Assembly: GCF_947036865.1 (NCBI RefSeq)
Contig: NZ_CAMQSF010000003.1
Location: forward strand, 62,001-126,000
Direction: 5' to 3'
DNA length: 64,000 nt
From: an uncultured Caulobacter sp.
Lineage (GTDB): Bacteria; Pseudomonadota; Alphaproteobacteria; Caulobacterales; Caulobacteraceae
Shown in pieces: positions 1-17,536 of this stretch (positions are counted from its first letter, which is position 1; each line of letters starts with the position of its first letter). The notes under the pieces were generated by a model. That model did no database searches. It was not told the origin of the DNA and saw nothing but the letters and a program-made list of their open reading frames with translations. The translations under genes were made by a program, and so were the position numbers.

Positions 1-640
1 ATGGCAGCTTCGACACCTGCACCGGGCCGGCGTGACCGAGGCGGTGGTCGTCACCGGTTTCCGCGCCGATCTGGTCGAGGCCGAGGTGGCGCGCTTGACC
101 TTGCCGGGCCTTACGATCCGCACGCTCTACAATCCGTTCTACAGCGTCACCGACAATCTCGCGACCTGCTGGCTGGCGCGCGAGGAAATGCGCGGCGGGC
201 CGTTCATGATCCTCAATGGCGACACCCTGTTCGAACCCGCCATCGCCGAGCGGCTGATCGGCGCGCCGCCGGCCCCGATCACCGTCACCGTCGATCGCAA
301 GGCCGAAGGCTATGACAGCGACGACATGAAGGTGCTGACCGACGGCGACGCCCTGCGCGCGATCGGCAAGACCATCCCCGAGTACGACGCAGAATCGATC
401 GGCTTCCTGCGCTTCGACACCGAAGGCTCGGCCCTGTTCGTCGAGACTCTGGAGAGGATCATGCGCGGGCCGGAAGGTCTCAAGCGCTGGTATCTCAGCG
501 TGATCCACGAGATCGCCCAGGCTCACGACGTCGTGCGGGTGCGCTCGATCGAAGGTCTGGACTGGGCCGAGATGGACTTTCCGGAGGACCTTGTCCGCAA
601 CCGCGCGCTGACCGCGCTGTGGGCGGCCGAGGCCGTTTAG
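1..640 (+). CDS. NTP transferase (sugar-phosphate/phosphoglycerate cytidylyltransferase type), 5'-truncated by window edge; candidate phosphoglycerate cytidylyltransferase of the ceramide head-group pathway (tentative cpgD by context)
   Basis: ORF 32..640 reads open upstream to the window edge (WQLRHLHRAGVTEAVVVTGFRAD...); motifs LNGDTLFEP, WAEMDFPEDL typical of nucleotidyltransferases. Confidence 0.75.
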   Translation, partial: WQLRHLHRAGVTEAVVVTGFRADLVEAEVARLTLPGLTIRTLYNPFYSVTDNLATCWLAREEMRGGPFMILNGDTLFEPAIAERLIGAPPAPITVTVDRKAEGYDSDDMKVLTDGDALRAIGKTIPEYDAESIGFLRFDTEGSALFVETLERIMRGPEGLKRWYLSVIHEIAQAHDVVRVRSIEGLDWAEMDFPEDLVRNRALTALWAAEAV

Positions 641-677
641 GCCAGGCTGGGGGCGACGAAGGGCGAGGCTTCGCGGC

Positions 678-1439
678 TCAAGCCTTCTCGCCGACGATCC
701 GCCGCACGAGGTCGAGGTCCGAGGGCTTGTCGACGTCCACCGCCGCCAGACCGTCGTGCGCCCGGACGGCGGCGGCCTTGACCCCCGCCAGGCGACCCAG
801 GCGCAGCACGGCCTCGTCCAGGGTCAGTCGGTTCAGGAGATAGCGGAAGAGGAACGAAGGCCCCAGCAGGGCTGCGATCTTCCAGGGCTGTTTGCGCATC
901 GCCTCGACCTTGCGCCAGACGTGGACGACGTTCAGCGCGGCCTCGTTGCGCAGGACGAAGAGGTTGCAGCCCGAATAGCGGCCGTCCTGGAAGCGCAGAT
1001 AGGTCCGCTGGGTCCCCGGCGCGGCGGCCTGGACCTTCTCCTCGGACGCCAGCAGCACGGCGACATCGGCCCAGTCGGGACAGTCCGCCAGGAAGCTCGT
1101 GATCCACTCGGGCTTGAGCAGCGCGTGGTCGACCGTGGTCACCAGCAGCGGAAAGCCCAGCGCGCCCGCGGCGGTCTCGACGCTCTGGCTGGGGCCGGAC
1201 GCGGGGGGGAGGATGACCACGTCGGCGTCCGCCAGGCGCGTCTTGATCGCCTCGTCATTGGCCGCGACGCCGATCGTCTCCGGCCCCGCCGCGCCGACCG
1301 CGCTCAGGACCCGGTCGAGCAGCGCGCGCCCCTCCAGCGTGATCAGCGCCTTGTGGCTCACCCCGGCATAGGCGGCGACGGGATCGACCTCGCCGCCGCG
1401 CGATCCGGCCAGGATCAGGGCCTTGAACCCTTGGTTCAA
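678..1439 (-). CDS. MobA-like NTP transferase domain protein
   Basis: ALILAGSRGGE...HKALITLEGRALLDRVL...LLVTTVDHALL; likely TTG start at 1439 overlapping the upstream stop codon. Confidence 0.75.
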   Translation of the reverse strand: MNQGFKALILAGSRGGEVDPVAAYAGVSHKALITLEGRALLDRVLSAVGAAGPETIGVAANDEAIKTRLADADVVILPPASGPSQSVETAAGALGFPLLVTTVDHALLKPEWITSFLADCPDWADVAVLLASEEKVQAAAPGTQRTYLRFQDGRYSGCNLFVLRNEAALNVVHVWRKVEAMRKQPWKIAALLGPSFLFRYLLNRLTLDEAVLRLGRLAGVKAAAVRAHDGLAAVDVDKPSDLDLVRRIVGEKA

Positions 1440-2593
1440 AGCGCCTTCTCGTAGATCCGATAGGTCTTGTAGTGCGTGCCGCCGACGTTCTCGGCGATGT
1501 GGGTCATCGCCTTGTTGTCCTCGAGCACCCACGAGATTTCATAGCGGTTGTAGCCGAGCGACATCGCCATATCGCGGCTGGCCTTCATCATCCAGAACGG
1601 CAGCATGCGGCCGCGCTGGGTGGACGAGAACTTGCGCTTGACCCCCATCAGCGGAATCCGCGCCGACTTCACGCCCTTGACCTTCAGTCGCCACAGCAGC
1701 TTGGCCCAGCCGAACGGCAACAGCTTGCCGTTCAGGTCGGCGATCGCCTCATTGACATTGGGCAGGAAGACGACGACGCCGGCGGCCTCGCCGTCGATCT
1801 CCGCGAACCAAACCAGGCGCTGGTCGATCACCTGCTTCAAGGCCTTGGCCAGTTGGCGGGTCTCGGCCTCGGTCGTGGGGGTGAAGCCCCAGTTGTCCTT
1901 CCAGGCGTCGTTCAGGATCTCGGTCAGGGTCTGGACCTCGGCGTCGTAGCGCTTCATGTCCAACTGGCGCAGCACGACGCCCGCCGGCAGGCCGCGCTTG
2001 ACGCGGCGCTGGGCGATCTCGGGGATGTCGCCGGTCTCGTCGGCCGTATAGGCGAAGATGTCCTTGGCCTTGGCGTAGCCCTGCTCCTCGACCCGCTTGC
2101 CCGTATAGATCGGATCATGACCCATCATCACCATGGGCGGCGTGTCGAAGCCCCAGACCAGCAGGCCGACCTCTTCGTTGATCGACAGGTTGAAGGGTCC
2201 GACGACATGGGTGCGGCCGCGGGCGCGCAGCCAGTCCTCGGCGCTGCGGAACAGGATCTGGAACACCGCCGGATCGTCCTCGGCGGCGATCATGCCGAAG
2301 TGCCCGTCCAGGCGACCGGGCGCGGGCTGCGGCGTCAGCTGGTCGATCTGGGCGCTGATCCGGCCGACGTCGCGGCCGCCGCGCGTGGCCAGGAACAGCT
2401 GCACCTCGGCGTGGGCGAAGAACGGATTGGTCTTCGGCGTCAGCGCCTCCAGCCGCTCCAGGGTCAGGGGCGTGATCCAGTTGGGATCCCTGGCGTTCAG
2501 GCGCGCGGGCAGGGCGACGAAGCGCTTGAGCTCGTCCTGCGTCTTGACGGGGATGACCGTCAGATCGGCGTTCGCGGAGTCGAAAGGCATCAC
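1436..2593 (-). CDS. bcerS: Bacterial ceramide synthase (GNAT-like N-acyltransferase)
   Basis: ~385 aa GNAT-like protein in the sphingolipid locus, matching the position and type of Caulobacter CC_1154; family recognition plus synteny. Confidence 0.75.
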   Translation of the reverse strand: MMPFDSANADLTVIPVKTQDELKRFVALPARLNARDPNWITPLTLERLEALTPKTNPFFAHAEVQLFLATRGGRDVGRISAQIDQLTPQPAPGRLDGHFGMIAAEDDPAVFQILFRSAEDWLRARGRTHVVGPFNLSINEEVGLLVWGFDTPPMVMMGHDPIYTGKRVEEQGYAKAKDIFAYTADETGDIPEIAQRRVKRGLPAGVVLRQLDMKRYDAEVQTLTEILNDAWKDNWGFTPTTEAETRQLAKALKQVIDQRLVWFAEIDGEAAGVVVFLPNVNEAIADLNGKLLPFGWAKLLWRLKVKGVKSARIPLMGVKRKFSSTQRGRMLPFWMMKASRDMAMSLGYNRYEISWVLEDNKAMTHIAENVGGTHYKTYRIYEKAL

Positions 2594-3651
2594 CCCTCCA
2601 GGGCTAAGAAGGCGCGGACGGCGAGCGCGCCGAAGATCGCGGGAGCGGCCCAGACGGCCAGGAACGGAGACAGGGCGCCCGACTCGCCCAGCGCGGTCAG
2701 CATGCCGTTGGCCACCAGGAAGAACAGGCCCGCCGCCAAGCCGGTGGTCAACAGCATCGCGCCTTGCCCGCTGCGGAAATTGGCCAGCGCCACCGGCGCG
2801 CTCAGCAGCAGCATCACCAAGGCCACGAACGGACCAGCGAACGCGGCCTGCAGATGGGTGGCGTAGAAGCTTTCGGGACGGTCCGAGCCGCCGTTCGCCA
2901 GCGCGCGACGGGCCGAGGCCGCGGTCGGCGCGGCGTCCTCGGCGAACAGGCCTTGCACGTCAGCGGGCCGAAGGGCGGTCGGCCAGGTGGTCGAGGTGGC
3001 GGTGGAGGTCTGGGCCAGGTCGCCGGCGAAGCGCGTCGTGCGCGGCTGATCCAGTGTCCAGGCTTCGTTGACGAACCGCGCGCGCGGCGCCTCGACCTTC
3101 TCGACCAGGATGCCCTTGTCGTTGCGGCGGAAGAGGGTCAGCGTGTCGATCGTGCGACCGTCCGCCGAGGCCTTGGCGGCGATCACGAGGTCGGCGCCCG
3201 CCCGGAAGGTGCGCGGCGGCGCGACCTTGCGCTGGGCGACGGGGGTCGTGTTCTTCCACCATTCGGCCAGGGTCGGGTCGGCGCGCGGGGCCAACACCTG
3301 GCCGCAGAGGACGTCCAGCAGCATCACCGCGACGGCCGCCGGCATGGCCATGGCCACGATGCGGTAGCCTGAAATGCCCGTGGCGCGCATGGCCACGACC
3401 GCGTTCTCGCGGGCCAGTTGCGAGAAGGCGAACAGGCCCCCTGCCAGGACCGACAGCGGCGCGACTTGCTCAAAAAGGCGCGGCAGACGCAGGGCCGCGT
3501 AGTAGAGGACCCCCGCGACGCCCAGGCCTCGGTCCAGAATGTCGGTCGTCACGTCCAGCAGATCCAGGATCTGCAGGATGGACATCAGGATCACGGCCGC
3601 GCCCAGGATATGCGTGGCCACGGTCCGCAGGACGTAGAGGTAAAGCTTCAT
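2590..3651 (-). CDS. LptG-like YjgP/YjgQ family permease (paralogue within sphingolipid locus)
   Basis: N-terminal TM, LLDVTTDILDRGLG..., central periplasmic domain, three C-terminal TMs; 4-nt overlaps with both neighbours. Confidence 0.8.
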   Translation of the reverse strand: MKLYLYVLRTVATHILGAAVILMSILQILDLLDVTTDILDRGLGVAGVLYYAALRLPRLFEQVAPLSVLAGGLFAFSQLARENAVVAMRATGISGYRIVAMAMPAAVAVMLLDVLCGQVLAPRADPTLAEWWKNTTPVAQRKVAPPRTFRAGADLVIAAKASADGRTIDTLTLFRRNDKGILVEKVEAPRARFVNEAWTLDQPRTTRFAGDLAQTSTATSTTWPTALRPADVQGLFAEDAAPTAASARRALANGGSDRPESFYATHLQAAFAGPFVALVMLLLSAPVALANFRSGQGAMLLTTGLAAGLFFLVANGMLTALGESGALSPFLAVWAAPAIFGALAVRAFLALEG

Positions 3652-4868
3652 GCGGGAAGTCGCTTCCGGGGCAAGGGTAGGGCGCGAACGACGCGCGTGA
3701 CCAGCTTGTTGATCCGGCGAACCAGACGCGACACCGGCGTGTCGCCGGGCCGCGTGCGGCTGCCGACGAACAGCCAGACCGCCAGGCCGGTGAAGATCAG
3801 GAACGGGACCCAGATGGCGGGCAGGGCCGCCACCTTGCCGGTCTTGGCCAGGCTCTGGCCCAGTTGCAGCGCGTGCTGGAAGGCGATCAGCAGCAGGCCC
3901 GCCATGATCAGGCCCGGCGCGCGATTGCCGCGCTTGGACGCCAGGCCCAGGGGGAAGGCCAGAAGCGGCAGGAACGGCAGAAACGCGGCCCGCGCCCAGC
4001 GGCCGTAGAACTCGCTCATCAGCGTGCCCTTGGAGACTACCGGGTGAGGCGACTTGGCCTGATCCAGCAGTTCGCCCATGGTCAGCTCGCGCTCGTCGCC
4101 GCCGCGCGCGCGCAGCAGAACGGCGGCGGCGGCCAGCGGAGTCTGGGTGGTCAGGCGGCTGAAGGCGAGGTTGCGATAGGCGCCCCCGCCGTCCATCGCG
4201 ATGCGGCGGCCGTCGCGCAGACCCATTGTCACGGTTTTGCCGTCCGCGTCGATCCGAAGATCGGCCGAGGCGGCGGTGATGATCTCTTCGTGGCCGCGCG
4301 CGTCCTTGCGGCGGATGAACACCCGCGTCAGCCGCTGGCCGGCGAGGTCGGCGCTGTCGGCGGTGAGCAGCGATCCGGAGTCGTCGATGAACGCGCCGCC
4401 GGCGAGCTTACCGTTCCATCCGGCGTTGATCGCGGCGTGCATGACCGCCCGGTAGGCGTAGCGGCTGTAGGGCTGCATGTAGCCGAACACCACGACGCTG
4501 AAGACGCTGAGGAAGACGGCGACGGCCAGGAAAGGCGCGGCGATCCGCTCCAGCGACTGACCGCTGGCCAGCAGGGCGTCGATCTCCGAGCCGTCCGAGA
4601 GCTTGGTGATCACGATGAACAGCGCCAGGAAGAACGCCATCGGCAGGGCCAGGCCCAGATAGTGCGGCACCAGGTTGAAGGCCAGCTGCGAGACGTAGTC
4701 GAACCGCGCGCTGCTTTGCGACAGCGCGTCCAGGAGCCGCAGGACGCGCTCCAGCAGCAGCGCGACGACGGTGACGCCCAGGCAGGCGATCAGCGGCCAG
4801 AACAGCAGGCGCAGCAGATAGCGGTCGATCAGGCGCCCCGGCGCGACCGTGAGGTCCTGAACGCTCAC
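3648..4868 (-). CDS. LptF-like YjgP/YjgQ family permease (paralogue within sphingolipid locus)
   Basis: GRLIDRYLLRLLFWPLIACLGVTVVALLLERVLRLLD, SDGSEIDALLASGQS; GTG start at 4868 overlapping upstream stop (GTGA). Confidence 0.82.
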   Translation of the reverse strand: MSVQDLTVAPGRLIDRYLLRLLFWPLIACLGVTVVALLLERVLRLLDALSQSSARFDYVSQLAFNLVPHYLGLALPMAFFLALFIVITKLSDGSEIDALLASGQSLERIAAPFLAVAVFLSVFSVVVFGYMQPYSRYAYRAVMHAAINAGWNGKLAGGAFIDDSGSLLTADSADLAGQRLTRVFIRRKDARGHEEIITAASADLRIDADGKTVTMGLRDGRRIAMDGGGAYRNLAFSRLTTQTPLAAAAVLLRARGGDERELTMGELLDQAKSPHPVVSKGTLMSEFYGRWARAAFLPFLPLLAFPLGLASKRGNRAPGLIMAGLLLIAFQHALQLGQSLAKTGKVAALPAIWVPFLIFTGLAVWLFVGSRTRPGDTPVSRLVRRINKLVTRVVRALPLPRKRLPA

Positions 4869-5302
4869 GCGCGCACCCAAGCCTCGGCCAGGCGTTCGGC
4901 CAGTTGTTCGACGGTTTCCGGCGACAGCTCCACGGCCGTGCTCAGCGCCGGAGCGGCGGGCCAGCCGGCGTCGGGGAACGACATGCCCGCGTGCTCGCGC
5001 GTCCCGGCGTAGCGCGGGATCACGTGAAAGTGGACGTCCCTGTCGACCATCATCAGCATCAGGTAGTTGATCTTCTCGTAGTCGACGGCGGCCTTGAGCA
5101 GGCGCTCGATCCCCGCGACCGCGACCTGGAGGTCGGCGAAAGCGGCGGGACTCACGTCGGAGAACGCCTGCGCCGCTTCCTTGCACACCAGCACCAAAGA
5201 CCCAAACGTCGGCTGCTTGGGGCGGACCAGAATCAGCCAGTGATCGGTCTCCGCGATCTTGGAGCGGGGATAGCCGAACGCGAGGGCCGTGGGATTGGTC
5301 AT
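4865..5302 (-). CDS. HIT family protein
   Basis: WLILVRPKQPTFGSLVLVCKE...VHFHVIPRY (HxHxxP-type motif). Confidence 0.8.
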   Translation of the reverse strand: MTNPTALAFGYPRSKIAETDHWLILVRPKQPTFGSLVLVCKEAAQAFSDVSPAAFADLQVAVAGIERLLKAAVDYEKINYLMLMMVDRDVHFHVIPRYAGTREHAGMSFPDAGWPAAPALSTAVELSPETVEQLAERLAEAWVRA

Positions 5303-5360
5303 GGGAAAGCCGGAACCGTGGGCGGACGTCGCCCTGGCGTAACAATAGGGACGCGGCCTT

Positions 5361-6296
5361 TTACAGGGAAGCACGATCCGTGTGGAGCGTCGCCTTCCTG
5401 GCCAGATCGACCAGGCTGTAGCGGCCAAGCTCCGCCAGCCCGTCGCGGCCCGGCTCGATCCCACGGACCACGATCCGCGCCCGCCGGCCGCCGTCGGGGC
5501 CGTCCTCGATCTCGATCGCGTGCCAGCGCGCGGGCGAATGACCGCCGGGGCGGGCCGAGGCCGAGGGGACGCCCAGCACCGGAATGACCGAGCCGTTCGG
5601 GCCGAGAACGGCGCCGACCAGGGCCTCGTGCGCGTGGCCGTGCAGGACGAGGTCGGCGCCCCTGCGCGCCAGCACGGCGCGCAGGGCGTCCTGGTCGTCG
5701 AGGGCCTTGCGCCTGGACACCGCGCCCTTCTGCGGCGGGTGGTGCAGCACCACGATCCGGAAGCGCTCGGCATGGACGGGATCGGCCAGGGCGGCGTCCA
5801 GGCGCTCCAACTGCTCGGCGCCCAGCCGGCCGGTGGCGAGGTGGGGCGCGGTCGGCACGGCAGAGCAGAGGTTGAAGATGGCCGCCGGCCCGCGCACGCG
5901 GACTTGCGGGAACGCCGCCTCGCCCGCGTCGCCCAGCCAGGGCGTCCAGGCGGCGAAACGCTCCGGGCCGCCCGCGCCGGCCAGGGCGTCGTGGTTGCCC
6001 GGACTGACCGTGAAATCGCTGGCCGGACCCAGCGATTCCAGCCAGGCGCGCGCCGCCATGATCTCCGTATGCGAAGCAAAGTTGGTGAGATCGCCGCTGA
6101 TCACCACATGGTCTGGGTTGGCGGCCTTGAGGTCGGCGACAAGGGCCGCCAGCACTTCGGGCCGGTGGACCTTGCGCTTCCTGCGCCAGGCGACGCGGCT
6201 CAGCAGGCGCTTGGTGACGACGTCCTTCCAGCCGAACGCGTCCGGCGGCGGCGGCAGATGGGGGTCCGAAAGGTGCGCGATGCGGTAAATGGACAA
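5361..6296 (-). CDS. Metallophosphoesterase
   Basis: AHLSDPHLP..., VVISGDLTN, SPGNHD, LHGHAHE calcineurin-like motifs. Confidence 0.9.
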   Translation of the reverse strand: MSIYRIAHLSDPHLPPPPDAFGWKDVVTKRLLSRVAWRRKRKVHRPEVLAALVADLKAANPDHVVISGDLTNFASHTEIMAARAWLESLGPASDFTVSPGNHDALAGAGGPERFAAWTPWLGDAGEAAFPQVRVRGPAAIFNLCSAVPTAPHLATGRLGAEQLERLDAALADPVHAERFRIVVLHHPPQKGAVSRRKALDDQDALRAVLARRGADLVLHGHAHEALVGAVLGPNGSVIPVLGVPSASARPGGHSPARWHAIEIEDGPDGGRRARIVVRGIEPGRDGLAELGRYSLVDLARKATLHTDRASL

Positions 6297-6453
6297 GAGG
6301 GCTCGGGTCGTTCTGGTGGAAGCGGTCGAAGCTGCTTATCAATCGCTCCGGGTTGCAAGGGTAGATCTGTCGTTGAGTAGTGGAAATCAAAGCCGAGCCA
6401 ACCTCGAGCCGCGCGCTCTGACGGTCGGGCGGGGCGGCGGCCGGATCTGGGGC

Positions 6454-7512
6454 ATGACCTCGCCCGAGCGCCTGTCGCGGATCTATCGGCGTATCGGCTT
6501 GATCGAGACGCCGGCCGTCGACCTGTCGCATGCGGTGGTCGCGGTCGACGCCGGCTGGGTGTTCGACGAGTCGCTGATCAAGGCGCTGGCGGGCCGAGAA
6601 GGCGCGGTGCTGGTCGACGAGGCTGGCCGCGCGGTGGCCGTCCACGCGCCGGCCGACCTGGCCTACGCGGCTTCGGACGCCCTGGCGGCGGGACAGGACC
6701 CCTCGACGCTGGATCCGCGACTGACGCGTCTGACCGCGCTGGAGCTGGGCTCGGCCTATAACAGCGCCCTCCGCAAGCGCGAGCCGCCGGTTCTGGAGCG
6801 GCTGACGCCCGAGACGGTCCGCGCCGTCGAGAAGCGCCTGTTCCAGGGCTCGTACAAGGGCGTCACCGACCTCGTCACCAAGTATGTCTGGCCGACGCCG
6901 GCGCGGATCGTCACCCGCTGGTGCGCGATCGCCAGGATGACGCCGAACCAGGTCACCGGGATCGGCTTTCTGCTGGTGCTGGCCGCCATGGCCCTGTTCT
7001 GGACCGGCCACTTCGGCTGGGGCCTGGTCTGCGCCTGGATCATGACCTTTCTCGACACCGTCGACGGCAAGCTGGCGCGGGTCACCCTGACCTCGTCCAA
7101 GTGGGGCAACGTCTTCGATCACGGCATAGACCTGCTGCATCCGCCGTTCTGGTGGTGGGCCTGGTTCGTCGGCGTCGGCGCGGTCGGTCAGACGATCCCG
7201 TACGCCAATCTCTGCCTGTTCATCGTGATCGCCGGCTATGTCGCCCAGCGCGTGGAGGAGGGGATCTTCCTGGCCCTCTTCAAGCTGGAGATGCATGCTT
7301 GGCGACCGTTCGACAGCTTCTTCCGCCTGATCACCGCGCGCCGCAATCCGAACCTGATCCTGCTGACCGCCTGCGCCTTGTTCGGGCGACCGGATCTTGG
7401 CTTCGTGCTGGTCACGGTCTGGACCGCCGCGTGCTTCGTGGTGCACGCTGTCCAGATCCTGCAAGGTTTGATCGCGCCGAAGGGCTCGATCCGCTCGTGG
7501 CTGTCGACATGA
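6454..7512 (+). CDS. CDP-alcohol phosphatidyltransferase family protein with N-terminal extension (tentative cpgC)
   Basis: DTVDGKLARVTLTSSKWGNVFDHGID matches the CDP-alcohol phosphotransferase motif DGxxAR(x8)GxxxDxxxD; multiple TMs. Confidence 0.88.
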   Translation: MTSPERLSRIYRRIGLIETPAVDLSHAVVAVDAGWVFDESLIKALAGREGAVLVDEAGRAVAVHAPADLAYAASDALAAGQDPSTLDPRLTRLTALELGSAYNSALRKREPPVLERLTPETVRAVEKRLFQGSYKGVTDLVTKYVWPTPARIVTRWCAIARMTPNQVTGIGFLLVLAAMALFWTGHFGWGLVCAWIMTFLDTVDGKLARVTLTSSKWGNVFDHGIDLLHPPFWWWAWFVGVGAVGQTIPYANLCLFIVIAGYVAQRVEEGIFLALFKLEMHAWRPFDSFFRLITARRNPNLILLTACALFGRPDLGFVLVTVWTAACFVVHAVQILQGLIAPKGSIRSWLST

Positions 7513-8426
7513 GGCGCATCGGGGTCGTTCGCAATCCGAGAAGCCACGGCAACCGGGTGCACCCGCCCGGCCCGCCGCCAGAGGGCGTGCGTCTCGTCGA
7601 GCCGCTGGGGCGCGACGCCTTGAGAGCCGAATTGGAGACCTTCGCGCGCGAGGGCCTGGACCTCCTGGTCATCGACGGCGGCGACGGCACGGTGCGCGAC
7701 GTCATCAGCCTCTTGCCGCACACGTTCGGCGAAGCGCCGCCGCTGCTGGCGGTGTTGCCGTCCGGCAAGACCAACGTGCTGGCCATCGATCTGGGAACGT
7801 CCGCCGCCTGGGGCCTGGAGCAGGCGCTGGCCGCCGCGCGCGGCGAAGAACCGCGCATCAAGTCGCGACCGCCGCTGCGGATCAGCTGGGCCGACGGGCG
7901 CCGCCCTTGCCTGCAGGGCTTCTTTTTCGGCGTCGGCGCTCCGGTCAAGGCGACCAGCCTGGCGCAGAAGGCCCACAAGGTGGGAGTCTTCCACAATTTC
8001 GCGGTCGGCCTGACCATCTTCACCGCGACGCTTGGCGCCCTGTTCGGCGGCGCGCGCGACGAGTGGCGCGAGGGCGTGCCGGCCAGGCTGGTGCTGGACG
8101 GCCAGGAGCAGCCTCCCGGCGAACGCTTCGCCGTGGTCGCCACGGCCCTCAAGCGCCTGCCGTTCGGACTCAAGCCGTTCGGCGATCCGCGCGAGGGGCT
8201 CAAGCTGCTGGACGTCGACGCCCCGCCGCGCCGGCTCTGGAAAGCGATGCCCCTGGTGCTCAGCGGCAAGGCCGAGCCGCGCCTCGAGGGGCTGGGCTAT
8301 CGACGTCGCGATCCCAGCGTCGTCGAACTGGGCGGCGGCGCGCCGTTCGTGCTGGACGGCGAGACCTTCGAGGGCGGCGACCTGACGATCGGCTTGGGTC
8401 CGTCGCTGCGGTTCCTGGTCGGATGA
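7509..8426 (+). CDS. cerK: Ceramide/diacylglycerol kinase-type lipid kinase
   Basis: DAGKc-like: VVRNPRSHGN, LLVIDGGDGTVRDV, LLAVLPSGKTNVLA; 4-nt overlap with upstream gene; same neighbourhood as Caulobacter CerK/CpgB. Confidence 0.82.
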   Translation: MRRIGVVRNPRSHGNRVHPPGPPPEGVRLVEPLGRDALRAELETFAREGLDLLVIDGGDGTVRDVISLLPHTFGEAPPLLAVLPSGKTNVLAIDLGTSAAWGLEQALAAARGEEPRIKSRPPLRISWADGRRPCLQGFFFGVGAPVKATSLAQKAHKVGVFHNFAVGLTIFTATLGALFGGARDEWREGVPARLVLDGQEQPPGERFAVVATALKRLPFGLKPFGDPREGLKLLDVDAPPRRLWKAMPLVLSGKAEPRLEGLGYRRRDPSVVELGGGAPFVLDGETFEGGDLTIGLGPSLRFLVG

Positions 8427-9301
8427 GCCGGCTGCGCGGCCTGGTCGCGGCCGAGCTCGGCGCCCCGACCCCCGCGCCGATCACCGCCTTCGCCGAGCGC
8501 TTGTCGCGCGTGTTTCCCGAAGCCCGCGCGGTGCTGTTCTACGGCTCGATCCTGCGGACCGGCGACCTGTCGGGGGTCCTGGACTACTACGTGCTGACCG
8601 AGCATCCGCCACGGGGGGTGCTTGGGGCCGTTTCGCGCGTCCTGTGGCCCGATGTCAGCTATCACGAGCTGACGCTGGACGGCCAGACGCTGCGCGCCAA
8701 GGTGGCGTCGATGACCCTGGCCCGGTTCCAGCGCGCGGCGAGCGGCGCCGGACTGGACACGACCATCTGGGCGCGTTTCGTGCAGCCCAGCGCCCTGGTC
8801 TGGGCGACCCCCGAGGCTCGCGGGACGGTGGTCGACGCGGTGACCGACGCCTGCCTTACAGCGGCGCGTTTCGCTCGCGCCCTCGGGCCGGTCGATGGAA
8901 CCGCGCAAGCGCTTTGGACGGCGCTGTTTCGCGAGACCTACAAGGCCGAGCTGCGGGTGGAGAAGGCCGGTCGGGAGGTCTCGATCCTGACCTTCGATCC
9001 AGAGCGCTACGAGGCCGTCATGGCGGCGGTCGAGGCCGACGACGGCCCCTTGTCGGCCGAGACCCGCGCGCGCCTGCTCGAGGCTTGGACGCCGCGAAGG
9101 CTGTTCGGCAAGCCGCTGAATGTCGCGCGGCTTATCAAGGCCGCCTTCACCTTCCGGGGCGCGTCGCGCTACGCGGCCTGGAAGATCGAGCGTCACACCG
9201 GCGTGCCGGTCGCCGTGACCCCCTGGCGCGAGCGTCATCCGATCCTGGCGGCGCCGGGCGTGCTGCTCAGGGTCTGGAGAAACCGGCGGCGGGCAGGCTG
9301 A
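8423..9301 (+). CDS. Nucleotidyltransferase-like protein of the ceramide head-group cluster (tentative cpgA)
   Basis: FYGSILRTGDLSGVLDYYVL (pol-beta-like GS..D.D pattern); ATGA-type overlap with the kinase ORF. Confidence 0.6.
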   Translation: MSRLRGLVAAELGAPTPAPITAFAERLSRVFPEARAVLFYGSILRTGDLSGVLDYYVLTEHPPRGVLGAVSRVLWPDVSYHELTLDGQTLRAKVASMTLARFQRAASGAGLDTTIWARFVQPSALVWATPEARGTVVDAVTDACLTAARFARALGPVDGTAQALWTALFRETYKAELRVEKAGREVSILTFDPERYEAVMAAVEADDGPLSAETRARLLEAWTPRRLFGKPLNVARLIKAAFTFRGASRYAAWKIERHTGVPVAVTPWRERHPILAAPGVLLRVWRNRRRAG

Positions 9302-9355: not shown

Positions 9356-10570
9356 TTACGCGCGGGCGCGCTTCAGCGGCTCGATCACGCCCAGGGCCGC
9401 GCCCACCTCGGCGAAGGTCTTCAGGACCGCGTCGATCTGGTCGTCGGTGTGGGCGGCGCTGACGCTGGCGCGCAGCAGCGGACGGCTGTCCGGCGTCGCG
9501 GGCGGCAGGGCCAGGTTCAGGTAGACGCCGGCCTGCAGCAGGCCGTTCCACATGGCTATGGCGCGCTCCTGGTCCGGCATGGCCGAGGCGACGACGGGGC
9601 TCGCCGTCGGGCCGGTGTGGAAGCCCAGCGCCGTGAGGCCGTCATAGAGGCGCTTGGCGTTGTGGTTCAGGCGATCGCGCAGCTGCGGCTGCTCGATCAT
9701 CCGGCGCAGGGCGGTGATGGTCGAGGCGACCACGGCCGGCGGCAGCGAGGCGGTGAACATGTAGGGGCGGCAGACGACGCGCATGACGTCGAAGTCGTCC
9801 AGGTTCGAGACGCAGAAGCCGCCGATGGCGCCCAGGCTCTTGGAGAAGGTGCCGACGATGAAGTCGACGTCGTCTTCCACGCCGGCGGCCTCGGCCAGGC
9901 CGCGGCCGGTCGCGCCGAGCACGCCCATCGAGTGGGCTTCGTCGACCAGCAGGTAACCGCCCAGCTCGCGCTTCACGGCGGCGATTTCCTTCAGCGGCGC
10001 GACGTCGCCGATCATCGAATAGACGCCCTCGACCACGATCAGGCGCTCGCCCGGCGCGTCGCCGAGGCGGCGCAGGCGCTTGGCCAGGTCCTCGGGGTCG
10101 TTGTGGCGGAAGCGGATGACCTCGGCCTGGCCCAGACGCGAGGCGTCATAGATCGAGGCGTGGCTGTCGGCGTCGAGGATCAGGTGGTCGCCGCGGCCGA
10201 CCAGCGTCGACAGCACGCCCAGATTGGCCTGGTAGCCGGTCGTGAAGACCATGGCGTGCTTGCGGCCGTAGAACTTGGCCAAATCGCGCTCGAGCTCGAC
10301 GTGCGCCTCGAACGAGCCGTTGGCGATGCGCGACCCGGTCGTGCCGGTGCCGCGTTCCTGGACGGCCTTGACGGAAGCGGCGATCGCCTCTTCGTCGAAG
10401 GTCAGGCCCAGATAGTTGTTGGTGCCGAGCAGGATCGTCGGACGACCCTCGACGACGCCTTCCGTTGGCGAATGCACCGCGTCGAAGCGGACCTTGAACG
10501 GGTCGGCGCCCGCTTGCTGGATGGCCTTGTACGCGTCGCGATAGGCCAGGTGCTTATCGAATAGCCCCAT
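9356..10570 (-). CDS. spt: Serine palmitoyltransferase (alpha-oxoamine synthase)
   Basis: TNNYLGL, GSRIANGSFEAHVELE, VDEAHSMGVLG, VGTFSKSLGAIGG (PLP lysine); followed by ACP. Confidence 0.92.
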   Translation of the reverse strand: MGLFDKHLAYRDAYKAIQQAGADPFKVRFDAVHSPTEGVVEGRPTILLGTNNYLGLTFDEEAIAASVKAVQERGTGTTGSRIANGSFEAHVELERDLAKFYGRKHAMVFTTGYQANLGVLSTLVGRGDHLILDADSHASIYDASRLGQAEVIRFRHNDPEDLAKRLRRLGDAPGERLIVVEGVYSMIGDVAPLKEIAAVKRELGGYLLVDEAHSMGVLGATGRGLAEAAGVEDDVDFIVGTFSKSLGAIGGFCVSNLDDFDVMRVVCRPYMFTASLPPAVVASTITALRRMIEQPQLRDRLNHNAKRLYDGLTALGFHTGPTASPVVASAMPDQERAIAMWNGLLQAGVYLNLALPPATPDSRPLLRASVSAAHTDDQIDAVLKTFAEVGAALGVIEPLKRARA

Positions 10571-10880: not shown

Positions 10881-11852
10881 TCAGTTTTCCGCCGTTTTCG
10901 AACTCGGCGACGATAATTCGGGTAGCCAGCCTTGCTTTCGATACCAACCAACGGTGTGAGCAAACCCATCGGTCAAATCGAACCGGCTGGGTACTCCCTC
11001 CGACATCGGAGCGCTAGATAGGGACCAATCGCGGTGAAGCAACTCCCGAGCTTTGCCGGAACCAAAGACCGAAGGGGTTTTCGTAGCAGAAGACCAAGCA
11101 TCTGCAAGGGTTCCAGCGAATAACAGCACGCCGTCGGGTAAGCGAAACAGGCGCGGAGAGCGGCCCATCACCGCCCCCGCGGCGCTCATGATTTCCGACC
11201 AAGTGTATCCGTCGCGCCGCACATCGGACAGCTCCACAACCCCCGGAACGGGGGTTCGGGAGAAGGCGACCAGCTTGGCGGCGGCGTCCTCGACGTGAAT
11301 CATGGCGATCCGCGTGGCCGGGGAAAGGACGGGCAGAAGGGGGCTCTTGGCCGCCATCGCGAACAATCCCAGCGTCTCGGTGTCGCCCGGGCCGTAAATG
11401 GCTGGGGGCCGAACGATCAGCGCGCCGGGGTAGGCCTCCAGCACGGCCTCTTCGCCCGCCCGCTTGCTGGCGGCGTAGTTCGACAGCTGGGGCTCGCGCG
11501 CCGCCAGGCTGGAGACGAGGATGAACCGCGCCCCGGCGGCCTTGGCGGCGAGGGCGGCGGCTCGGGCGCCGTCTCGATTGATCAGATTGAAGGCGGCTAG
11601 CGACGCGGCCTTGATCAGGCCCGCGACGTGGATCACCACCTCCGCGCCTTGGCTGAGTCGGTCCAGTGCGCCAGGCGTATTGAGGTCGCCGACGACGATC
11701 TCGACCTCGATGTCCCGCCAGAGCGGATGGATCGGGTCGCGGCGGACCAGCACCCGCGGCCGCCAGCCGTCGTCCGCCAGGGCGCGCACCAGATGGCGGC
11801 CGAGGAAGCCGGTGGCTCCGGTGACGGCGACGATCCCCCTGTCGTGCGGCAT
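10881..11852 (-). CDS. cerR: NAD(P)-dependent epimerase/dehydratase family; ceramide reductase
   Basis: VTGATGFLGRHLVRAL, YAASKRAGEEAV (YxxxK); locus context. Confidence 0.82.
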   Translation of the reverse strand: MPHDRGIVAVTGATGFLGRHLVRALADDGWRPRVLVRRDPIHPLWRDIEVEIVVGDLNTPGALDRLSQGAEVVIHVAGLIKAASLAAFNLINRDGARAAALAAKAAGARFILVSSLAAREPQLSNYAASKRAGEEAVLEAYPGALIVRPPAIYGPGDTETLGLFAMAAKSPLLPVLSPATRIAMIHVEDAAAKLVAFSRTPVPGVVELSDVRRDGYTWSEIMSAAGAVMGRSPRLFRLPDGVLLFAGTLADAWSSATKTPSVFGSGKARELLHRDWSLSSAPMSEGVPSRFDLTDGFAHTVGWYRKQGWLPELSSPSSKTAEN

Positions 11853-15064: not shown

Positions 15065-15730
15065 TCAGCGTCCGGACTCAAGCCGCGTGCGCACGCGGCC
15101 CTTCAGCACGACCCGGTCGCCCTTGTCCGTGACTTGATAGCTGTTGGCCTTGGTGCTGCCCTTGGGACCCGCGCCGGCGATCCCGGACTGGCCGCTGACC
15201 TCGCCCGTGCGCATGTCGATCAAGGCGCTGGGCGCGTCGAAGTCGTAGCCGTCGCTGCTGGTGATCTGGACGTCGTCCTGCAGCAGCAGGGTGTGCTCGG
15301 CCTCGCGGAACAGGCCGGTCTTGGCGGTCGCCTGGCTGGGATTGGGCGCGCCGTAGCCGCGAACGAGGACGGGCGTGACCAGATGCAGAAGGTTCTCGTC
15401 CTTGGCGTCGCGCTCGGCGCTCTGGGCCGTGATCAGGAAGGCGCGGCCGTCCTTCAACACGCCGGTGAAGCGCGGCTTGTCCAGTTGCAGCGGCGTCTTG
15501 GCGGCCTGGGTCTGCACCTTGTTCGAGGCGAGCCCGCGCCAGGAGGCCTGGACGACCACCGCCAGGCCGATGCCGATCGCGAACACGGCCAGCCCCAGGC
15601 GCAGCCGGCGGACCGGCTCGCGGCGGCGATTGCGCGCCCGCTCCGCGGCGCTTTCGGTGGGGGGAGCGGCGCGAGCGCCTTCGGTCTGGGTGAGCATCGG
15701 CGAATGAAATAGTCCCGCGTCGTCGATCAC
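15065..15730 (-). CDS. LptC-like periplasmic lipid export protein (paralogue within sphingolipid locus)
   Basis: Single N-terminal TM, then LDKPRFTGVLKDGRAFLITAQSAERD...LLLQDDVQITSSDGYDFDAPSALIDMRTGEVSG: LptC/OstA-like repeat character. Confidence 0.82.
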   Translation of the reverse strand: MIDDAGLFHSPMLTQTEGARAAPPTESAAERARNRRREPVRRLRLGLAVFAIGIGLAVVVQASWRGLASNKVQTQAAKTPLQLDKPRFTGVLKDGRAFLITAQSAERDAKDENLLHLVTPVLVRGYGAPNPSQATAKTGLFREAEHTLLLQDDVQITSSDGYDFDAPSALIDMRTGEVSGQSGIAGAGPKGSTKANSYQVTDKGDRVVLKGRVRTRLESGR

Positions 15731-15851
15731 CCAAGACCTTTGTTTCCCGGGCGCGCGCTACACACCGCCCGGTCGTCTCTCGGCGCGGGCTCCGCTGGGC
15801 GGCCCGGAGAAGCGCGTGATCCGCCGTCGCGAGGCGTGTAAGGTCGCCGCC

Positions 15852-16916
15852 ATGTTCGATCGCCCCGCCCAGCACAAGGATTTCGGCGTCTTCCTGCCGG
15901 TGGCCAACGGCGGCTGGATCGTCTCGAAGGCCACGCCCGTCCTGGACGGCCTCTATGCCCAGAACCGCGCCGCGGCGGTCGCCGCCGACCGGATCGGCAT
16001 GGATTTCGTGATGTCGATGGGCAAGTTTCGCGGCTTCGGCGGCGAGACCGACCACTGGGGGACCTCGCTGGAGTCGGTCACGCTGATGGCCGCGATCGCC
16101 GAGGCGACCCGCCGGGTGCGCATCTGGGCCACCGTGCATCCCCTGCTGCAGAACCCCGCCGTCGCCGCCAAGATGGTCGCCACCCTGGACCACATCAGCG
16201 GCGGTCGCGCGGGTCTCAACATCGTCGCCGGCGCCTACAAGGCCGAGTTCGACCAGATGAGCGCCTGGGACGACTCGCTGTCGCATGACGATCGCTATGC
16301 CCTGGCCGAGGAGTGGACCACGATCGTCAAACGCCTCTGGGCCGAGGACAGCGTCGACTTCGCCGGCCGTTACTTCACGATGAAGGACTGCCAGTCCAAG
16401 CCCAAGCCACTGTCTCGGCCGCGTCCCGAGCTGATCTGCGCCGGCATGTCGGATCGCGGGTTCCAGTTTTCCGTGCGCGAGGCCGACGCGTGCTTCATCG
16501 GCGGCCGCTCGCGGGCCGGGCATCGCGACGCCTCTCGCCGCGCCAAGGCCCTGGCGGCGGCGCTGGGCAAGTCGGTTCGCGTCTACGCCATGTGCACGAT
16601 CATCCACGCCGAAAGCGACGCCGGCGCCGAGGCCCGGGTCCGCCGCTACGCCGACGGCGCGGATATCGGCGCGATCCTGTCCATGCTGGCCAGCTGGGGC
16701 GTGCCCGCCGATCGCCTCGACGCGACGGCCAAGGCGCAGGGTCCGTTCATGACCGAGACCGTTATCGGCTCGCCCGCCACCTGCCGCGAGCGGGTCGAGA
16801 GCTTCATGACCGAGTGCGAGCTGGACGGCTTGATGCTGATCTTCCCCGACTATGACGAGGGCCTGGCCATGTTCGGCGGCGAGATCCTGCCCGGCCTGCG
16901 CGCGGTGTTCTCGTGA
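15852..16916 (+). CDS. LLM-class flavin-dependent monooxygenase, RutA-like
   Basis: FGVFLPVANGGWIVS..., MSMGKFRGFGGETDHWGTSLESVTLMA, ISGGRAGLNIV: RutA-type pattern. Confidence 0.82.
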   Translation: MFDRPAQHKDFGVFLPVANGGWIVSKATPVLDGLYAQNRAAAVAADRIGMDFVMSMGKFRGFGGETDHWGTSLESVTLMAAIAEATRRVRIWATVHPLLQNPAVAAKMVATLDHISGGRAGLNIVAGAYKAEFDQMSAWDDSLSHDDRYALAEEWTTIVKRLWAEDSVDFAGRYFTMKDCQSKPKPLSRPRPELICAGMSDRGFQFSVREADACFIGGRSRAGHRDASRRAKALAAALGKSVRVYAMCTIIHAESDAGAEARVRRYADGADIGAILSMLASWGVPADRLDATAKAQGPFMTETVIGSPATCRERVESFMTECELDGLMLIFPDYDEGLAMFGGEILPGLRAVFS

Positions 16917-17536
16917 GCCTGAAGGCCTGGATCGCCCCGGCGCGAACCGCGCTGTTGATCGTCGACATGCAGGTCGATTTCGCCTCGCCCCAGGGGGCGG
17001 CGGGCCGCTGGGGCCTGGACCTTTCCACGGTTCCTGAAGCGCTGGCGGCGGCCGAACGCTTGGCCGGCGCCGCTCGCGCGGCGGGTGTTCCGGTGATCTT
17101 CGCCGGCCTGTTCACGACGGCGGAGACCGACTCACCGGCCTTGATCGAACGTCTGCGCCGTCGCGGCGACGCGATCGACGCCGATGTCGCCATCTGCCGC
17201 GCGGACGCCTCCGGAAGCGACTTCGTCGGGCCGCTGCCCGCGCCGGGCGAGACGGTGATCCGCAAGACGCGCTACAGCGCCTTCTGGCGGACCGAGCTGG
17301 ATGCCCGCCTGCGCGTGTTGGGCGTCGACACCCTCGTCCTGGCCGGCCTGACCACCGAATGCTGCCTCGCCGACACCGCGCGTGACGCCTTCAGCCACGA
17401 CTACCACGTGTTCGTCGCCGCCGACGCCTGCGCGGCGTATGAGCCGGACCTGCACGCCGGCGCGTTGAAGATGCTCGACCTGAACACGGCGATCCTGACC
17501 GACACGGCCAGCGTCGCGCGGGCCTGGACGGCCTAG
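16913..17536 (+). CDS. Isochorismatase-family cysteine hydrolase, RutB-like
   Basis: ALLIVDMQVDF, VIRKTRYSAFWRTELD, LVLAGLTTECCLADTARDAF. Confidence 0.85.
   Translation: MSLKAWIAPARTALLIVDMQVDFASPQGAAGRWGLDLSTVPEALAAAERLAGAARAAGVPVIFAGLFTTAETDSPALIERLRRRGDAIDADVAICRADASGSDFVGPLPAPGETVIRKTRYSAFWRTELDARLRVLGVDTLVLAGLTTECCLADTARDAFSHDYHVFVAADACAAYEPDLHAGALKMLDLNTAILTDTASVARAWTA

Follow-up and report, generated by a model that had tools for sequence, protein, structure and literature searches.

The window analysed here is a 64,000-nucleotide stretch of DNA from an uncultured Caulobacter sp. (contig NZ_CAMQSF010000003.1, positions 62,001 to 126,000 of the forward strand), which carries the gene cluster for ceramide phosphoglycerate (CPG) and CPG2, orthologous to CC_1152-CC_1168 (CCNA_01210 onward) of Caulobacter crescentus. 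Lipids made by this cluster have been reported to allow Caulobacter to live without lipopolysaccharide and to set its sensitivity to polymyxin. Here, we propose that the head-group genes form two separable modules, one comprising the ceramide kinase CerK (CpgB), CpgC and the MobA-like nucleotidyltransferase NT2, and the other comprising the cytidylyltransferase CpgD and the cytidine diphosphate (CDP)-alcohol phosphotransferase CpgA. We put the probability of this division, as part of the whole two-module explanation of CPG and CPG2 synthesis, at about 0.6. The cluster itself is already known, and what is added here is modest: the division into modules, the step to which NT2 belongs, the assignment of CpgC to the Tam41 type and of CpgA to the AF2299 type, and an argument by elimination concerning PgsA.

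Co-occurrence was scored across one fixed set of 190 genomes of the class, with only strong matches counted; thresholds for CpgA, CpgD, NT2 and CpgC were placed by eye where the E-values showed a clear gap, while CerK matches are weaker in divergent genomes (down to 1e-10). The ceramide synthase CerS is present in 25 of the 190 genomes, and CerK and CpgC in the same 21. NT2 is found in 20, all of which also hold CerS, CerK and CpgC, with no strong match elsewhere. CpgA and CpgD occupy exactly the same 13 genomes, all within the 20 that have NT2; the chance of such perfect agreement, with 13 drawn from 20, is 1.3e-5 under independence, and the genomes are not independent. By parsimony the state of the pair changes five times on the CpgC tree and four times on the CerS tree, and the pairing is therefore probably not a single event, but many forks are weak, and the strongly supported (starred) branches alone force only two changes and one change, respectively. 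CpgA and CpgD thus behave as one unit, which is expected if the CDP-glycerate made by CpgD is the donor for CpgA, and supports the published proposal to that effect.

NT2 follows the other module. It is retained in all seven genomes that have CerS, CerK and CpgC without CpgA and CpgD, and in five of these (G026, G123, G131, G158 and G159) it lies inside the sphingolipid cluster. By distribution NT2 belongs with the first head-group step, though its mutant was read as second-step; that it stays with CerK and CpgC when CpgA and CpgD are missing disagrees with a purely second-step role. A reading made earlier from the sequence alone had linked these genes to one another, and their association is not a matter of chance (CerK with CpgC in 21/21 genomes, CpgA with CpgD in 13/13). 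Nor are homologues routine where the bacterial ceramide synthase is lacking: among the 165 genomes without it, strong matches number zero for NT2, CpgA and CpgD, one for CpgC, three for the phosphoesterase and five for the HIT-domain protein.

The order of the cluster is CpgD, NT2, CerS, LptG2, LptF2, HIT, phosphoesterase, CpgA, CerK/CpgB, CpgC, Spt, AcpR, CerR, AasR, a flippase-like protein and a probable LptC2, in gene-for-gene agreement with the published CC_1152-CC_1168 order across the part examined (PMC11324152). Homologues of cerS, spt, cerK, cpgA, cpgC, cpgD, CC_1153, CC_1158, lptF2 and lptG2 are thus all together at one locus. The features are as follows.

1..640, plus strand: 3' part of cpgD (CC_1152 ortholog), cytidine triphosphate (CTP):phosphoglycerate cytidylyltransferase; active-site residues and NF041135 match
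678..1439, minus strand: NT2 (CC_1153 ortholog), MobA-like nucleotidyltransferase; above the Pfam NTP_transf_3 cut-off (54.3 bits against 27, E 2.3e-14), relative of TTHA0179
1436..2593, minus strand: CerS, bacterial ceramide synthase (CC_1154 ortholog); cluster position, family of close homologues, weak GNAT match
2590..3651, minus strand: LptG2, LptF/LptG-type permease; PF03739, E 2.6e-72
3648..4868, minus strand: LptF2, LptF/LptG-type permease; PF03739, E 4.9e-64
4865..5302, minus strand: HIT-domain protein (CC_1157 ortholog), an optional member; PF01230, E 9.6e-05
5361..6296, minus strand: metallophosphoesterase (CC_1158 ortholog); PF00149, E 7e-14, full metal-site motifs
6454..7512, plus strand: CpgA (CC_1159 ortholog), CDP-alcohol phosphotransferase; complete motif, AlphaFold2 model matching AF2299 (4o6n)
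6454..6804, plus strand: N-terminal extension of CpgA, residues 1-117, cytidylyltransferase-like and without the nucleotide-binding loop; inside the full-length AF2299 match
7509..8426, plus strand: CpgB/CerK, ceramide kinase (CC_1160 ortholog); DAGK_cat, E 8.9e-10, GGDGT motif
8423..9301, plus strand: CpgC (CC_1161 ortholog), Tam41-like, predicted CTP:ceramide-1-phosphate cytidylyltransferase; AlphaFold2 model and fold matches
9356..10570, minus strand: Spt, serine palmitoyltransferase (context); PF00155, E 1.2e-53
10881..11852, minus strand: CerR (context); Epimerase and 3-beta-HSD Pfam matches

The genes named in the sequence-only reading are present as intact frames with Pfam or structural support, save that 1-640 is corrected to the 3' part of cpgD: the full gene (L002:5888-6640, 250 aa) has its start 112 bases before the window begins. 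The coupled overlaps seen in the last three genes of the divergent run are real, with 4-base stop/start overlaps at cpgA/cerK and cerK/cpgC, but are not limited to them. The same overlaps join HIT/lptF2, lptF2/lptG2, lptG2/cerS and cerS/NT2 (the TTG start codon of nt2 overlaps the stop codon of cerS), and both divergent runs, one on each strand, are therefore coupled. Between Spt and CerR lies a frame with a DSLAL motif, an AcpR-type acyl carrier protein. The probable LptC2 (CC_1168 counterpart; 15065-15730), on the far side of the cluster, is assigned by published order and sequence character only.

CpgC gives a confident AlphaFold2 model (predicted local distance difference test score 91.8, predicted template modelling score 0.89), whose five best matches in the PDB are all Tam41, the CDP-diacylglycerol synthase of mitochondria and bacteria, including the bacterial 7ecd (E 2.5e-06 to 5e-05, probability 1.00). 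The template modelling (TM) score is about 0.5 to Tam41 against about 0.3 to the next family, the aminoglycoside nucleotidyltransferases; TM scores and Pfam carry the Tam41 argument, because the two families differ little in E-value. In Pfam, the Tam41_Mmp37 family PF09139 is matched above cut-off by one CpgC ortholog and just below it by another, with no match to CpgC of the window. D54 is the single invariant acid after the YGS motif and there is no D-x-D, and Tam41 likewise keeps one of the three usual nucleotidyltransferase acids (reviewed in PMC11646218). Tam41 moves cytidine monophosphate (CMP) from CTP onto phosphatidic acid at the membrane (PMC7018664); fold, single acid and this chemistry together suggest CDP-ceramide as the likeliest product of CpgC. 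A CDP-diacylglycerol-synthase-type domain in CC_1161 was noted earlier in PMC11324152, where a nucleoside diphosphate-ceramide is also raised as a speculation; CDP-ceramide as an activated sphingolipid intermediate is not mentioned in the literature searched. If CpgC does make CDP-ceramide, sphingolipids would share the CDP-lipid branch point of glycerophospholipids.

CpgA has a complete CDP-alcohol transferase motif, DxxDGxxARx8GxxxDxxxD (D201-x2-D204-G-x2-AR-x8-G-x3-D222-x3-D226), invariant in 12 orthologs. The best match to its AlphaFold2 model is AF2299 (4o6n; E 5.2e-09, TM 0.67/0.70 over 347 columns), followed by IPCT-DIPPS, and chimeras with an AF2299 domain also match over the full length. 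The N-terminal extension, to which the sequence-only reading could assign no role, matches no Pfam family above cut-off; given the full-length AF2299 and chimera matches, its roughly 117 residues are explained as the cytidylyltransferase-like domain described in AF2299 (PMC4634129). AF2299 accommodates CDP-glycerol and not lipids (PMC4634129), which fits a donor such as the CDP-glycerate of CpgD. In CpgD, all nine CTP, Mg and active-site positions checked against PMC12275187 and PMC13228409 are identical (G12, R16, K26, T88, N90, T93, G111, D112 and W201). The bifunctional IPCT/DIPPS profile NF041135 is matched over positions 34-216 by CpgD (the cytidylyltransferase half) and over 206-406 by CpgA. 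A second CpgA-like CDP-alcohol transferase, 35-38% identical and with a complete motif, is found between lptG2 and a hydroxylase gene in the sphingolipid clusters of four relatives (L155:10013-10948, L156:13372-14277, L157:9042-9998 and L158:6478-7476), and could be dedicated to another step.

The proposed pathway can be divided accordingly. In the first module, CerK would phosphorylate ceramide, a reaction demonstrated by biochemical work on the C. crescentus ortholog (PMC10331486), and CpgC would transfer CMP from CTP onto ceramide-1-phosphate to form CDP-ceramide, to which a CDP-alcohol transferase encoded outside the cluster may attach glycerate or phosphoglycerate, giving CPG; NT2, an intact nucleotidyltransferase, would work with CerK and CpgC. 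In the second, CpgD would convert CTP and 2-phosphoglycerate to CDP-glycerate, the reaction of its ortholog (PMC12275187), and CpgA would transfer phosphoglycerate from it onto CPG to give CPG2, a step supported by the co-occurrence of the pair. The phosphoesterase would be accessory and the HIT protein optional, and LptF2/LptG2 may export the product, as proposed in published work. The sequence-only reading, which saw here a Caulobacter-type cluster for an anionic, CDP-activated head group on ceramide, agrees with what had been published (PMC11324152, PMC10331486, PMC12275187). The genome comparison shows where to direct attention, with CpgA and CpgD forming a self-contained pair and NT2 going with CerK and CpgC, contrary to its current placement in the second step.

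The CPG-forming transferase is narrowed by elimination. Published work reports that a cpgA mutant still makes CPG; should CDP-ceramide be the intermediate, CPG must then come from either PgsA or an enzyme of a different family. The source genome has only two PF01066 proteins, CpgA and one of PgsA type. Three genomes with NT2 and CpgC and without CpgA (G026, G158 and G159) also have two each, of PgsA and PssA type in G026 and G158; no dedicated CDP-alcohol transferase was found in the loci of CpgA-less clusters, nor genome-wide in these three. That a Tam41-type enzyme makes CDP-ceramide, that the housekeeping PgsA converts it to CPG and that NT2 supplies an activated compound to this same first step is, as a complete chain, speculative and rather improbable.

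Several observations weigh against the two-module scheme. The sequence similarity of CpgC to Tam41 is faint: PF09139 is matched by 2 of 20 members, the TM score is only about 0.5, and a sequence search of the PDB with CpgC returned no Tam41 match. We know of no enzyme that converts CDP-ceramide to CPG. The six-helix architecture of CpgA is tied to soluble acceptors (PMC4634129), and the scheme needs a lipid-anchored one. Two of the 20 NT2 genomes (G039 and G167) hold only divergent copies outside the sphingolipid cluster, which lack some family residues and hence may be paralogs. The most direct objection is genetic. In C. crescentus, CPG requires CerK and CpgC, and CPG2 requires CC_1159, CC_1152 and CC_1153; deletion of CC_1153 abolishes CPG2 and raises CPG, and complementation restores the wild-type pattern (PMC11324152). 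Taken alone, this result places NT2 in the second step. Polarity on other genes of the overlapping run is unlikely as an explanation, because NT2 is the last of them. PMC11324152 makes NT2 the second-step enzyme that activates phosphorylated CPG, and the NT2 genomes without CpgA and CpgD would then employ NT2 for another kind of second head-group decoration. The occurrence of the NT2 family far outside sphingolipid makers, in Thermus and Bacillota, shows the fold to be reusable. Yet NT2 is kept in the genomes that lack CpgA and CpgD, whose clusters show no head-group gene in their stead. Published ceramide measurements likewise place CC_1153 among the first-step genes: its mutant, like the CC_1159/1160 mutant, has much more ceramide, and the CC_1152 mutant has less than the wild type (PMC11324152). 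We regard the second-step role as a real possibility with the odds against it; NT2 and CpgD might be redundant in the first step.

The chemistry of both modules has alternatives of its own. CpgC may nucleotidylate something else, or may, as Zik and colleagues originally suggested, join glycerate directly to ceramide-1-phosphate. In favour of this, CpgA-less genomes have no CDP-alcohol transferase gene beside CpgC, and three of them have only the two PF01066 proteins noted above. Direct condensation, however, is energetically unfavourable (PMC11324152), and the fold and single acid of CpgC fit Tam41 and CMP transfer to a lipid phosphate; we consider this alternative unlikely, while giving it appreciable weight. 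For CpgA, the acceptor could instead be soluble phosphoglycerate, to which CDP-glycerate would be joined much as DIPP synthase uses inositol phosphate, with the phosphoesterase removing the terminal phosphate. AF2299 and IPCT-DIPPS, which CpgA most resembles in structure, act on soluble substrates, six-helix CDP-alcohol transferases have been described with soluble acceptors, and the phosphoesterase gene divergently adjoins cpgA. But the distribution of the phosphoesterase does not go with that of CpgA (10/13 genomes with it, 4/7 without, p = 0.61), one locus (L165) has a phosphoesterase beside Spt and CerS without CerK, CpgC or NT2, and CPG accumulates in step-2 mutants and so looks like the acceptor. 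A soluble acceptor thus seems quite improbable, and CPG remains our preferred acceptor for CpgA.

The metallophosphoesterase has complete metal-site motifs (DxH/GD/GNHD/HH/GHxH). Deletion of CC_1158 partly lowers CPG2, to which the gene contributes, and no ortholog was reported in Zymomonas or Sphingomonas (PMC11324152). The enzyme occurs in 14 of the 20 NT2-positive genomes and in four others; two CpgA-less genomes, G158 (2.0 Mb) and G026 (2.5 Mb), encode inside the cluster a phosphoesterase of 38% identity. Its presence in CpgA-less genomes and at L165 indicates that it is not tied to CPG2, and its distribution gives no support to a step-2 assignment. The sequence-only reading found no role for it or for the MobA-like transferase, a view that is out of date since the CC_1153 and CC_1158 mutants have lipid phenotypes (PMC11324152); the nucleotide recycling and head-group trimming suggested in that reading are still guesswork. 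The HIT protein, put forward there as a candidate pathway member, has a loose link to the pathway: it is present in 9 of the 13 CpgA/CpgD genomes, but in none of the seven that have the first module only, and in five without the pathway; CC_1157 is probably unrelated according to PMC11324152.

Thermus and Deinococcus have lipids that contain glycerate, and the best solved relative of NT2, TTHA0179, is a Thermus protein. Members of the TTHA0179 family occur widely across Thermus, Deinococcales and Bacillota (L181-L260), with no sphingolipid genes close by. A link between NT2 and the glycerate lipids was considered and dropped, as none of 80 such neighbourhoods contained a CpgA, CpgC or CerK homologue or a CDP-alcohol transferase motif.

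Neighbouring genes add some context. Directly before cpgD, outside the window on the minus strand (L002:3390-5593), lie genes for a GT4-type glycosyltransferase and an LPG_synthase_TM protein, possibly glyco-sphingolipid or other envelope genes. Beyond the cluster, a luciferase-type monooxygenase followed by an isochorismatase-type hydrolase (15816-17536) resembles, by eye, RutA/RutB of pyrimidine catabolism. In 13 relatives a fatty acid hydroxylase gene (PF04116) lies between lptG2 and cerS or adjoins cerS (L146:13286-14110 and 12 further loci). It is not in the cluster of the window, and a search without a positive control found no match in the source genome. The gene of about 260 aa between lptG2 and cerS in relatives had been considered as a head-group enzyme, and was ruled out by its PF04116 identity.

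Among known systems, the C. crescentus cluster is the closest: there too lptF2-lptG2-cerS-NT2 share one strand and cpgA-cpgB-cpgC diverge from them, the CpgD N-terminus MQPVKTL is in agreement with the published primer, and the checked active-site residues are identical. Apart from the species, no difference was seen in the published order, primer and residues compared. In NT2 the catalytic R, K and D of the MobA/CofC-like fold are conserved (R14, K30, D104, D235 and D237 are invariant), and the best solved relative of NT2, similar over the full length, is TTHA0179 (2dpw; E 1.1e-37), deposited as a hypothetical protein. Similarity to the 3-phospho-D-glycerate guanylyltransferase 7p97 is marginal (E 0.03), and the score against CofC 2-phospho-L-lactate guanylyltransferase (TIGR03552) falls short of the cut-off (14.9 bits against 105). 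CpgC resembles Tam41/TAMM41 (PF09139; 6ig4, 7ecd) in whole-length fold, YGS motif, single active-site acid and, prospectively, CTP-dependent activation of a lipid phosphate, but identity is about 11% and the predicted substrate is ceramide-1-phosphate rather than phosphatidic acid. CpgA shares with Archaeoglobus AF2299 and IPCT-DIPPS a six-helix CDP-alcohol transferase preceded by a cytidylyltransferase-like domain, and differs in its donor, CDP-glycerate instead of CDP-glycerol or CDP-inositol, and in its acceptor, presumed to be a ceramide lipid. CpgD is the counterpart of the active cytidylyltransferase half of IPCT-DIPPS, and here CpgD and CpgA are encoded by separate genes.

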